A stretch of DNA of 64,000 nt. Origin: Pseudoclavibacter sp. CFCC 11306. GTDB taxonomy: Bacteria; Actinomycetota; Actinomycetes; Actinomycetales; Microbacteriaceae. Where the stretch lies: positions 124,001-188,000 of the forward strand of contig NZ_WBKF01000002.1 of assembly GCF_008831235.1 (NCBI RefSeq), read 5' to 3'. How positions within the stretch are numbered: the stretch's first letter is position 1; each line of letters opens with the position of its first letter. Below are positions 24,076 through 27,267 of this stretch, piece after piece. A program made the translations under genes and the position numbers. The notes beneath the pieces were generated by a model, which saw nothing but the letters and a program-made list of their open reading frames with translations, was not told the DNA's origin and ran no database searches.

Positions 24076-24165
24076 GGAGACGTCGCATAGTCTGGCCTAG
24101 TGCACCACCCTGCTAAGGTGGAGTCCCGAATTTCGGGACCGAGGGTTCAAATCCCTCCGTCTCCG
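24076..24165 (+). tRNA. tRNA-Ser (GCU)
   Basis: A 90-base class II tRNA. Acceptor arms GGAGACG and CGTCTCC pair, the anticodon stem CCACC/GGTGG encloses loop CTGCTAA (anticodon GCT), the variable arm pairs GTCCCGA/TCGGGAC and the T arm is GAGGG-TTCAAAT-CCCTC. CCA is not encoded. Its 3' end forms the left attachment site of the integrated element. TATGAT at 24043-24048 is a plausible -10. Confidence 0.95.
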
Positions 24166-24169
24166 CGCT
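24149..24169 (+). repeat. attL core, 21-bp direct repeat in tRNA-Ser 3' end
   Basis: An exact copy lies at 26389-26409. The core keeps the tRNA intact after integration. Confidence 0.88.
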
Positions 24170-24180
24170 ACTGACTGAAT

Positions 24181-24211
24181 GAGTGAAAAACCCCGGAATA
24201 CCGGGGCACTC
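24181..24211 (+). terminator. Hairpin after tRNA-Ser, inside the element
   Basis: GAGTG, five A, CCCCGG-AATA-CCGGGG, CACTC: an inner 6-bp stem and an outer 5-bp stem with an A-bulge. It probably ends tRNA-Ser transcription now that the native terminator is displaced. Confidence 0.6.
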
Positions 24212-24240
24212 TTCTCCCCAAACCTCACCAAAAGCTTCTG

Positions 24241-24266
24241 AATGACTTATCAGAAGACTTATTATT
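24241..24266 (+). repeat. Arm-type repeat, left copy
   Basis: A 26-bp sequence matching 26321-26346 at 23 of 26 positions in the same orientation. Each copy holds two GACTTAT heptamers 12 bases apart. It lies over the integrase start codon. Confidence 0.6.
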
Positions 24267-25645
24267 CTGGCATGGCCTCCGAGCGCAGAAACCCCTACGG
24301 AACCGGCAGTCTCTTTCAGACAACCAGCAACGGCAAACCCGTCTGGCGGGCGCAGAAGAGCATCAACACGCCACAGGGACGCAAATACCTCACCGGATCA
24401 GGCAGCAGCCCGCAAGCCGCAACGCAACGGCTGGAAACCAACATCAGGAACTACCACGACGGCACGAACCGCAAACGCCACACGCCCCTGATCAAAGCCG
24501 TCTGGAACTATCACAACACCCACCAGCTCAGCCCAAACGCCAAAGCACGCGAAGCCGGACTCATCAAGAACTACCTCGCTCCAAGACTGGTCGAGGTCTG
24601 GCTCGAAACCGCGACCGAAGCCAAGATCTTCGACGTGCTCGAAAGCATCAGAACCACCAACACCCGAACCGGCCAACCACTCGGAAGCACCGGACGGCGC
24701 ACCCTCTTCTACCTCCTGCGCAGCACATTCACACAGGCCGAACGAGACGGCAAACGCAAATCCGGCACACATCCAATGCGCTGGATGAAAGCACCCCAGC
24801 GCACCGTTCAACAAGACAATCAGATACTCGGCACCCGACTCGAAGACTGGAAACACATCTTCGACACCCTCGCAGAAGAAGCATTCGGAGGCATCTACTA
24901 CCAAGACGACTACCTCACCGAGGGCTACATCACCGGCTATATCCGCTGGGTCTTCGCACTGCTCGGCCTCAGACAATCAGAACGCCTCGGCCTGACCTGG
25001 GACTGCTTCAGCGACTTCTCAGCCGATCAGGTCTACCTCTCCATCCACCAACAGCTCTACAACGACGCAGTCGAACACCGCCTCTACATCAGACCCGTCA
25101 CCAAAAACCGGCGAGGCACCCGACTCATCCCACTTCCCAAGAACGTCGCCACCATGTTCGAAGAGCACAAATCCAACCAACACCACTACTTCACAAAACA
25201 CGGCATCACACCCACCATCCCCGACCTCGTCTTCACCACCAAGACCGGCAAGCCCATCCGACAAGCCACAGACAACGAAGCATGGCGCGACCTCTGCAAG
25301 ACCCTCAACGTCTCAGAACTCAAAGGCCACGGAGCGCGACACCTCTTCGCCACCGCCCTCGCCAAATACGGAGTCAAACCACACGTCGCGAAAGCACTAC
25401 TCGGTGACACCAAAGCAATGACCGCCTACTACACCCACACACGACAAGAAGACCAAACAGAGGCCATCGAAGACCTCTTCAAAAACGCTGACGTCGACTT
25501 CGACAAGTTCGGCCACCAGCCCGCCGAACCCACACAAGCCCACCCGCAGAAAGTCCACCACATCGACCCCAAAGAAGCGGCCATGGTCGCTGCACTCCCC
25601 ACCAACGCAGAGAAATGGGACACCCCTGGCATCTGGCTCGACTAA
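24242..25645 (+). CDS. Tyrosine recombinase (integrase) of the integrated element
   Basis: A 467-residue phage-type integrase. The N-terminal part (about 10-70) is an AP2-like arm-binding domain (YGTGSLFQTTSNGKPVWRAQ), then a SAM-like core-binding domain (about 80-190) and a catalytic domain with Arg244 (LGLRQSERLGLTW), Lys288, HGAR at 363-366 and the nucleophile Tyr397 in AYYTHT. The second His position reads GD instead of GH. It catalyses integration and excision at tRNA-Ser. Codon use is clearly different from neighbours (many AAA, ACA, CCA, AAC), a sign of transfer. The start at 24242 lacks a clear ribosome binding site; ATG 24272 is the alternative and would place the arm repeat just upstream. 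No excisionase gene is seen. Confidence 0.92.
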   Translation: MTYQKTYYSGMASERRNPYGTGSLFQTTSNGKPVWRAQKSINTPQGRKYLTGSGSSPQAATQRLETNIRNYHDGTNRKRHTPLIKAVWNYHNTHQLSPNAKAREAGLIKNYLAPRLVEVWLETATEAKIFDVLESIRTTNTRTGQPLGSTGRRTLFYLLRSTFTQAERDGKRKSGTHPMRWMKAPQRTVQQDNQILGTRLEDWKHIFDTLAEEAFGGIYYQDDYLTEGYITGYIRWVFALLGLRQSERLGLTWDCFSDFSADQVYLSIHQQLYNDAVEHRLYIRPVTKNRRGTRLIPLPKNVATMFEEHKSNQHHYFTKHGITPTIPDLVFTTKTGKPIRQATDNEAWRDLCKTLNVSELKGHGARHLFATALAKYGVKPHVAKALLGDTKAMTAYYTHTRQEDQTEAIEDLFKNADVDFDKFGHQPAEPTQAHPQKVHHIDPKEAAMVAALPTNAEKWDTPGIWLD

Positions 25646-25764
25646 ACAGGGACCACAACCTGCCGCCTATCAGGAGCTATCAACTCCGTCGAGTTCGCCG
25701 CCCACGGCTCACCGCTCCCAAGGGCGCAAGCGCCCCGGCGGCACAACAACGTCCCCCACAGAGG

Positions 25765-25878
25765 TGTCACAAAACCCTGTTACAAGGGCATATTTTCTGT
25801 CACAAGTGACGCTGTTGCTGTGACAACTACTCCCCAGTAAATGTATGGGCACAAGGGGCTTCTGTCACATTGTCACAA
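25765..25878. repeat. Iteron-like cluster of TGTCACAA repeats
   Basis: Six copies of TGTYACA(A) or its complement at 25765, 25778, 25798, 25819 (reverse), 25863 and 25871. The copy at 25799-25810 is a perfect palindrome GTCACAAGTGAC. Such clusters bind replication initiators or repressors. Confidence 0.6.
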
Positions 25879-25879
25879 G

Positions 25880-25901
25880 GGGGGGTAAGACTATACCCCC
25901 C
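25880..25901. other. G6TA/TAC6 hairpin next to the iteron-like cluster
   Basis: GGGGGGTA and TACCCCCC form an 8-bp stem around a 6-base loop, directly after the last TGTCACAA copy. It could be a nick or origin structure; no initiator gene is in the element. Confidence 0.5.
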
Positions 25902-26320
25902 AGTTCACTCCGCTGCGCTCCGCTCACCCTCGGCCACCGGCAGCCTCCGACCAGACCCACTCCGCTGCCGCTACGGGGCCGTGGCCTACAGCATGCCTCA
26001 GGCCTACGGTAAGCACACACACGGCACACACGCTCAGCAAACCACACCCAGGGACAGCACAACGTCCCGCACTCCTACGGCTAAGAGCCAGACCCGACAA
26101 CAGGCCAAAGACAAACACAGCCCAAGCAGGCATATGACGCTCAGAAGCCCGTAAATGCCCCTCTAAGACATTTACATACTCGTTAAGGTGAATACCTGCG
26201 AAAAGCCCACAACGGGCTAGAATCGCCTGAAAATGGACAGAGAGCGCCAAGAAACCCCGCCATGCGCGTTCAGATCAACGTCCGATAGAAATACAAGATC
26301 ACACACAAAGCGACAAGCCC

Positions 26321-26346
26321 AATGACTTATTACATGACTTATTATT
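26321..26346 (+). repeat. Arm-type repeat, right copy
   Basis: Partner of 24241-24266 (23 of 26 identical, same orientation), 43 bases inside the right att core. Confidence 0.6.
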
Positions 26347-26388
26347 TCAGGCCAAACCCAAATACCCGCACAAACACAGGCCTGTTAT

Positions 26389-26409
26389 AAATCCCTCCGT
26401 CTCCGCGCT
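26389..26409 (+). repeat. attR core, 21-bp direct repeat
   Basis: Exact copy of 24149-24169; the displaced original 3' end of tRNA-Ser. Confidence 0.88.
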
Positions 26410-26415
26410 GAGCCG

Positions 26416-26456
26416 AAGGCCCCGCATCCCGCAGAATCACTGGGATGCGGGGCCTT
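26416..26456 (+). terminator. Native tRNA-Ser terminator, displaced by the insertion
   Basis: A 15-bp perfect stem (26416-26430 with 26442-26456) followed by TTT, 7 bases after attR. In the uninterrupted chromosome it would lie directly after tRNA-Ser. Confidence 0.8.
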
Positions 26457-26530
26457 TGCCGTCTCGTCGTCGGCACAGTGATGGCCACATGATCGCTCCC
26501 GCTGCTAACCTGTCTTCGAGGCCTGAATGC

Positions 26531-26580
26531 AGGCCTGCGGACGAGGGAGCAGTACCCGCAGACGACAAGACTGACTCGTA
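26531..26580 (+). promoter_or_regulatory. Guanidine-III (ykkC-III) riboswitch
   Basis: The sequence carries the three conserved blocks of the guanidine-III riboswitch in order: CGGACGAGG, GTACCCG and GACAAGAC. P1 pairs CTGCGG (26535) with CCGCAG (26556). The pseudoknot helix pairs GAG-CAGT (from 26546) with ACTG-A-CTC (from 26570). It ends against the AGGAGGG ribosome binding site of the first SMR gene, so guanidinium binding probably controls translation. Confidence 0.9.
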
Positions 26581-26593
26581 GGAGGGTCACGTC

Positions 26594-26908
26594 GTGGCAT
26601 GGATCATACTCATCGCATCAGGTCTGCTTGAGACCGTCTGGGCGGCAGCGCTCGCGGCGTCGCGAGGGTTTCGCAGACTCTGGCCCAGCATCCTCTTCGT
26701 CGTCGCGTTCGGCGCGAGCATGGCCGGCCTCGCATATGCGATGTCGGTGATCCCGACCGGCACGGCCTATGCCGTCTGGGTGGGCATCGGCGCATGTCTC
26801 ACTGTGGTCTGGTCGATGGTGAGCGGTCGAGAACGCGCCTCGATCGCGCGCGTGCTGCTGCTCGTGCTGCTCGTCGCATCCGTCATCGGTCTGAAGGTGG
26901 TGAGCTGA
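26594..26908 (+). CDS. SMR family guanidinium exporter subunit 1 (Gdx/SugE-type)
   Basis: A 104-residue protein with four membrane helices. Helix 1 has the conserved Glu in SGLLETVWAAALAASRGF, and AYAVWVGIGACLTVVWSM is the SMR signature in helices 3-4. SugE/Gdx-type SMR proteins exchange guanidinium for protons. It starts with GTG 26594, seven bases after AGGAGGG, under the guanidine-III riboswitch. Its stop overlaps the start of a second SMR gene by one base (TGATG). Such pairs form heterodimers with opposite topologies, as in YkkC/YkkD. Confidence 0.93.
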   Translation: MAWIILIASGLLETVWAAALAASRGFRRLWPSILFVVAFGASMAGLAYAMSVIPTGTAYAVWVGIGACLTVVWSMVSGRERASIARVLLLVLLVASVIGLKVVS

Positions 26909-27267
26909 TGCCGTGGGTCATCCTCGTCGTGAGCGGCGTGCTCGAAGCCGTCTGGGCGACCGCGCTCGGAAGCTCTCAGGGGCTCACGCAGCCGGTCGCG
27001 GTCGTCGTCTTCGTCGTCGCGCTGGTGATCAGCATGGCTGGTCTGAGCCGTGCGGCTCGTACGATCCCGATCGGCACCGCCTACTCGGTCTGGGTGGGCA
27101 TCGGTGCGGTGCTAACGGTGGTCTTCGCGATGGCGACGGGCGCCGAGTCGTTCTCATGGCCCAAGGTGGCCTGCATCGGCGGTGTCGTCGTGGCGGTGAT
27201 CGGGCTGAAGCTGGTGCGGTCGGATGCGGTGGTCGCGAAAGACGCGGAGTCGTCGCCTAAAGAGTGA
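26908..27267 (+). CDS. SMR family guanidinium exporter subunit 2
   Basis: A 119-residue SMR protein with four membrane helices: SGVLEAVWATALGSSQG with the conserved Glu, and AYSVWVGIGAVLTVVFAM. The C-terminus carries an extra 15-residue polar tail (SDAVVAKDAESSPKE). ATG 26908 overlaps the first subunit's stop, so translation is coupled. With subunit 1 it should form a heterodimeric exporter; the C-terminal tail may fix its orientation. Its 3' end overlaps the convergent membrane-protein gene by 11 bases. Confidence 0.92.
   Translation: MPWVILVVSGVLEAVWATALGSSQGLTQPVAVVVFVVALVISMAGLSRAARTIPIGTAYSVWVGIGAVLTVVFAMATGAESFSWPKVACIGGVVVAVIGLKLVRSDAVVAKDAESSPKE

Follow-up and report, generated by a model that had tools for sequence, protein, structure and literature searches.

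Behind an intact tRNA-Ser(GCU) gene in this genome lies a 2,240-bp segment that carries an integrase gene and ends in a second copy of the tRNA 3' end, which raises the question of whether it is what is left of a larger element or a very small element that still moves. The sequence-only reading had offered both possibilities, a worn-down conjugative or plasmid element and a minimal satellite moved by helper functions. The segment was analyzed within the window (the whole 64-kb stretch of DNA) and compared with congeners, other genomes of the family, plasmids, and phages. With a probability of roughly 0.6, the element was judged to be the integration module left from a larger tRNA-integrating Rep/AICE-like element, and now probably an immobile deletion remnant.

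The boundaries of the element were those claimed from the sequence alone: an exact 21-bp direct repeat was located at 24149-24169 and 26389-26409, with a spacing of 2,240 bp. As the intact tRNA-Ser(GCU), the integration target, spans 24076-24166 on the forward strand (ARAGORN; Rfam RF00005), the left repeat consists of the tRNA 3' end and three further bases and represents the left att core, while the right repeat is the displaced tRNA 3' copy and represents the right att core, both in the forward orientation. The native tRNA terminator (26416-26456, forward strand, with a 15-bp perfect stem) is now 2.2 kb downstream. Three congeners were compared, Pseudoclavibacter sp. 13-3 (G003), P. caeni JCM 16921 (G002), and P. 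soli DSM 23366 (G001). A precise empty site was found in Pseudoclavibacter sp. 13-3, where the tRNA is followed at once by the terminator and the guanidine-III/SMR locus, and the flanking proteins of the two strains are 94% (LCP) and 96% (SMR) identical. The integrase was not found in any of the three congeners searched, and the regions downstream of the tRNA differ in P. caeni and P. soli. The 2.2-kb segment is thus an insertion and not an old fixture of the locus, as the empty site and the absence of the integrase from the congeners indicate. The Rfam scan above cut-off returned the tRNA and, outside the element, the guanidine-III riboswitch only. This riboswitch (46.7 bits against a cut-off of 36) lies just beyond the right repeat (locus 26516-27267) and immediately precedes a tandem pair of small multidrug resistance genes, which are conserved in sp. 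13-3 and probably encode a guanidinium exporter pair.

The element comprises one intact ORF, encoding a tyrosine integrase, and 743 bp (25646-26388) in which no coding signal was detected. The claimed absence of excisionase, replication, transfer, and cargo genes held, as there is no gene besides the integrase; neither a replication initiator gene, an FtsK-like Tra/TraB gene, nor a relaxase gene is present in the element. Its foreign make-up, noted earlier for the integrase codons, extends to the whole element: the GC content is 56.7% compared with 67% in the window, and with a GC skew of -0.27 and an AT skew of +0.36, it is more skewed than any other 2.2-kb stretch of the window. The strand asymmetry runs throughout 24170-26388, the integrase strand being rich in A+C in coding and non-coding parts alike. 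Rolling-circle replication is an unsupported source of the skew because the Rep-bearing relatives described below lack it, and no such asymmetry was seen in the larger related elements.

The integrase ORF (24242-25645, forward strand) encodes 467 amino acids from the ATG at 24242 or 457 amino acids from the ATG at 24272, of which the latter is the more probable start. It matched PF00589 with an E-value of 1.1e-15 (58.3 bits against a cut-off of 27.1), and five of the six catalytic residues are kept (R234, K278, H353, R356, and Y387, numbered from the ATG at 24272). The sixth, at the H/W position, lies within LLGDTKAMTAYYTH and is an Asp, so that the active site reads R-K-H-R-D-Y and departs from the catalytic R-K-H-R-H/W-Y pattern; the loop is also one residue shorter than in the relatives. 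His occupied this position in the alignment in all 39 other integrases compared, and it is reported for more than 90% of tyrosine recombinases, in which hydrophobicity at the H/W position docks the Tyr-bearing helix (PMC4381057). As Cre W315A and Flp W330A, both altered at this position, are non-productive (PMC4381057), the change from His to Asp in a shortened loop suggests that the activity of the integrase is likely lost; its homology to PF00589 is not in doubt, whereas its activity is. No stop interrupts the 457 codons of the frame, its 3-base periodicity is strong, and only 5 of 2000 first-order shuffles stayed open; decay of the integrase, if real, would therefore be recent or partial. 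An AlphaFold2 model (mean pLDDT 66.8, pTM 0.45) was left unused because it was weak and least certain around the Tyr-bearing C-terminal stretch.

Near both ends of the element are near-identical 26-bp blocks, each a direct-repeat pair with a 12-bp period. The left pair (24243-24266) contains GACTTATCAGAAGACTTATTATT at 24244 and the right pair (26321-26346) contains GACTTATTACATGACTTATTATT at 26324, both on the forward strand. The pattern occurred at these two positions only in the 64-kb window, where shuffles gave an expectation of zero, and had no match in viral contigs; the right pair was the sole tandem repeat found by TRF. In the circular form, the pairs would lie 73 bp (left) and 42 bp (right) from the core. 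This is the position expected of arm-type integrase sites, and by analogy with lambda-like integrases, the blocks may have this role; both attP arms survive as such pairs. Between the tRNA and the left pair, the element supplies a hairpin just inside its left end (24190-24207, forward strand; hairpin scan, fold z-score of -4.2), which probably replaces the displaced native tRNA terminator.

The claim of about 740 non-coding bases was also borne out. The 743-bp region had no Pfam match and no ORF longer than chance, and its 3-base periodicity ratio was 2.2, a value reached by 14% of shuffles, compared with 16-33 in coding pieces. A blastn search of plasmids and phages gave no match, and no DNA resembling the region was found in plasmids, phages, or related elements. 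Hidden pseudogenes were considered for this stretch and rejected on the lack of a Pfam match, of similarity to relatives, and of 3-base periodicity. An iteron-like cluster (25765-25878) consists of four copies of TGTCACA and one of the complement TGTGACA; these five copies fall within 113 bp, compared with eight across the whole window, and clustering this dense for any 7-mer arose in 7 of 2000 shuffles. It adjoins a perfect hairpin, GGGGGGTA-6-TACCCCCC, at 25880-25901 (inverted repeat, fold). Together, the cluster and the hairpin look like a protein-binding or origin-like site, and the hairpin could be an origin or transfer site; neither was matched to a known oriT or clt. The hairpin pattern had 37 matches in viral contigs, from which no link is claimed.

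The best full-length relatives of the integrase were 25-29% identical overall and, going by their named neighbours, belong to the same family, Microbacteriaceae. Six of the seven best relatives lie directly 3' of tRNA genes: Tyr, Ser(GGA) (two), Ser(GCU), and Ala(UGC) (two). Both ends were found for four related elements, L075 (5.7 kb), L073 (6.8 kb), L081 (9.0 kb), and L077 (15.5 kb). A PF23343 rolling-circle Rep is encoded in L073 and L075, together with Vsr/HNH/NotI-type and methyltransferase-like genes, and L070 has an ORF judged by eye to be FtsK/TraB-like. The two compact elements, L073 and L075, also have in common a small conserved protein, about 116 amino acids long (..NYGYYL..), without a family match. 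The order of tRNA, hairpin, arm pair, and integrase is common to our element and the related tRNA elements; comparable G+C-rich hairpins between the tRNA and the arm sites were read by eye in several relatives, and paired arm-type-like sites of other sequence stand at both ends (TGCGTATC in L073, GGCTTAA in L075, and TTTCTGTTTGAA in L081). This suggests that the Microbacteriaceae tRNA elements share an end layout, with an element-supplied hairpin followed by paired arm-type-like sites of 12-bp period at both ends, which could be used for mapping such elements in the family. Just 3' of tRNA-Ser(GCU) in P. soli (L097/L068), a hairpin precedes a tandem CGACACTAC pair of 12-bp period, with no integrase nearby; this resembles a scar left by another element with the same hairpin/arm-pair layout.

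A profile survey retrieved 75 integrases in 65 of 398 genomes of the family. Further elements with both ends resolved were 8.8, 10.2, and 12.7 kb long, and only one, L160 (G161), was comparably small: it measures 3.5 kb, lies at tRNA-Thr(CGU), is bounded by 55-bp repeats, and contains one or two small ORFs besides an integrase. Among the elements seen, the 2,240-bp element is the smallest, with the proviso that for integrases pointing towards their tRNA, the far side was covered over about 3 kb, so that the comparison does not extend to larger elements there. Integrases related to that of L160 occupy the same tRNA-Thr(CGU) in four other genomes of its genus. Peptide patterns revealed no close homologue of our integrase in GTDB contigs or IMG/VR, and tblastn against plasmids and phages gave distant matches only, all below 60% identity and about 22-33% among those listed. 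The searches thus gave no larger element whose integrase is close to this one, and no parent element.

These results argue for a remnant. The exact att repeats, the empty site in sp. 13-3, and the paired sites at both ends define an integrated element; larger relatives share its layout, and two of them, L073 and L075, have Rep and restriction-type genes; and the active-site His is replaced, no second copy was found in the collections searched, and the foreign composition covers the whole element. We propose that a circular element, of a small rolling-circle/AICE-like plasmid type, entered an ancestor of the strain. Its heterobivalent tyrosine integrase would have bound both arm-site pairs and joined the attP core to the tRNA-Ser(GCU) 3' end by recombination, an event that would have restored the tRNA and placed a new hairpin behind it. 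Replication, transfer, and cargo genes may then have been lost through internal deletion, or may have been missing already on arrival, which would leave the integrase, both att cores, both arm pairs, and the possibly origin-like non-coding stretch. The element is probably stranded because it has no excisionase and its integrase has Asp for His in the shortened loop. Several observations run against this reading. The integrase frame is open and periodic, so the gene may still be under selection or the insertion may be young. The two att cores do not differ from each other, and the arm pairs are intact at both ends. The non-coding stretch has no traces of deleted genes and does have a non-random repeat cluster. 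Finally, the closest full-length integrases are only 25-29% identical and point to no parent, and the skew is absent from the larger relatives.

The next reading in order of support, a possible one of clearly lower probability, is a working minimal hitchhiker in which the integrase, attP, and a cis origin/transfer or packaging site within the 743 bp depend on a helper plasmid, AICE, or phage in trans. It is possible because all cis parts are intact: the arm pairs, att cores, and integrase frame are complete, and the iteron-like cluster with its adjoining perfect hairpin offers a candidate site. AICE transfer is reported to require just Tra/TraB and a cis site (PMC3218068), and it has been proposed that islands with an integrase only are satellites of uncharacterised kinds (PMC10121019). 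A possible helper is present in the same genome, where a region (L062, G000:C1:1236001-1256000) has tailed prophage-like genes (amidase, tail-fibre-like) and an integrase directly 3' of tRNA-Ser(CGA). Against this reading, the active-site His is replaced, no second copy of the element was found in any collection searched, no DNA match to it was found in phages or plasmids, the PF23343 Rep is absent from its own genome and the three congeners, and no DNA was shared with the rest of its own genome, prophage included, except for a terminator-like stretch outside the element. In another island (L063, G000:C1:71001-91000), an integrase accompanies SIR2-like and HerA-like ORFs, and an AAA ATPase lies beside a large ORF (translations read by eye). 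This island is possibly defence-related; neither it nor the prophage has DNA in common with the element. Of the two origins proposed by the sequence-only reading, the worn-down conjugative or plasmid element is thus the better supported, through the larger relatives, two of them with Rep and RM-type genes, and the lost His, while the searches for a second copy, a phage or plasmid match, a Rep in the same genome, and prophage-shared DNA gave no positive evidence for a minimal satellite with a helper. That the non-autonomous integrase, attP, and 0.75-kb cis region still circularise and spread through the replication/transfer proteins of a helper was considered rather unlikely; if true, the element would be among the smallest integrase-carrying hitchhikers and, as one that still moves, would set a lower size limit for hitchhiking integrative elements.

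It is more doubtful still that the integrase is kept as a solitary DNA-binding protein, with a host or self-regulatory role and decayed recombinase activity, as MrpR of SPbeta (PMC10516654). Despite the change of one active-site residue, its N-terminal and core-binding parts align with those of relatives, and the arm pair just upstream of the ORF start could allow autoregulation; however, the Tyr nucleophile is among the five of six catalytic residues kept, searches of the three congeners did not find the integrase, and the window has no arm-like sites elsewhere. An assembly artefact or chance repeat is very improbable: no supporting point was found, the exact repeat occurs together with the tRNA, the integrase, and the arm sites, a congener has the precise empty site, and the window is contiguous within a 435-kb contig of a 2.35-Mb genome in three contigs.

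The element was also compared with known systems. Islander defines a tDNA genomic island as a tRNA gene, its cognate fragment, and an integrase between them, over 2-200 kb (PMC4383910); the element has all of these, with a length just over the lower limit, but unlike such islands it has no gene besides the integrase. AICEs, their remnants, and mobilizable integrating elements (PMC3218068) are, like the element, actinobacterial, with an integrase adjoining one att site and insertion at a tRNA 3' end. The element has the integrase with tRNA att sites and, unlike AICEs, neither a replication initiator nor Tra/TraB; elements having no more than two of these modules were excluded from the AICE survey, which took them for probable remnants, prophages, transposons, or islands of other kinds (PMC3218068). 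The PICMI phage satellites (PMC10803314) are also very small and integrase-based, but they are known from Vibrionaceae and combine int with AlpA, primase, and Fis, of which the element has int only. The integrase-only mobile islands of E. coli (PMC10121019) similarly have an integrase and lack other known mobility genes, but carry defence cargo, of which the element has none. The Microbacteriaceae tRNA elements (L073, L075, L070/L077, L071/L078, L072/L079, and L076/L081) share its integrase family, post-tRNA position, hairpin, and paired sites of 12-bp period, whereas they have further genes, measure 5.7-15.5 kb where both ends were found, and have integrases that keep the His. The element is covered by the published categories of tDNA islands, AICE remnants/mobilizable integrating elements, and integrase-only islands, among which it provides a cleanly bounded case, with an empty-site control, of the extent to which tRNA-integrating elements can be stripped.
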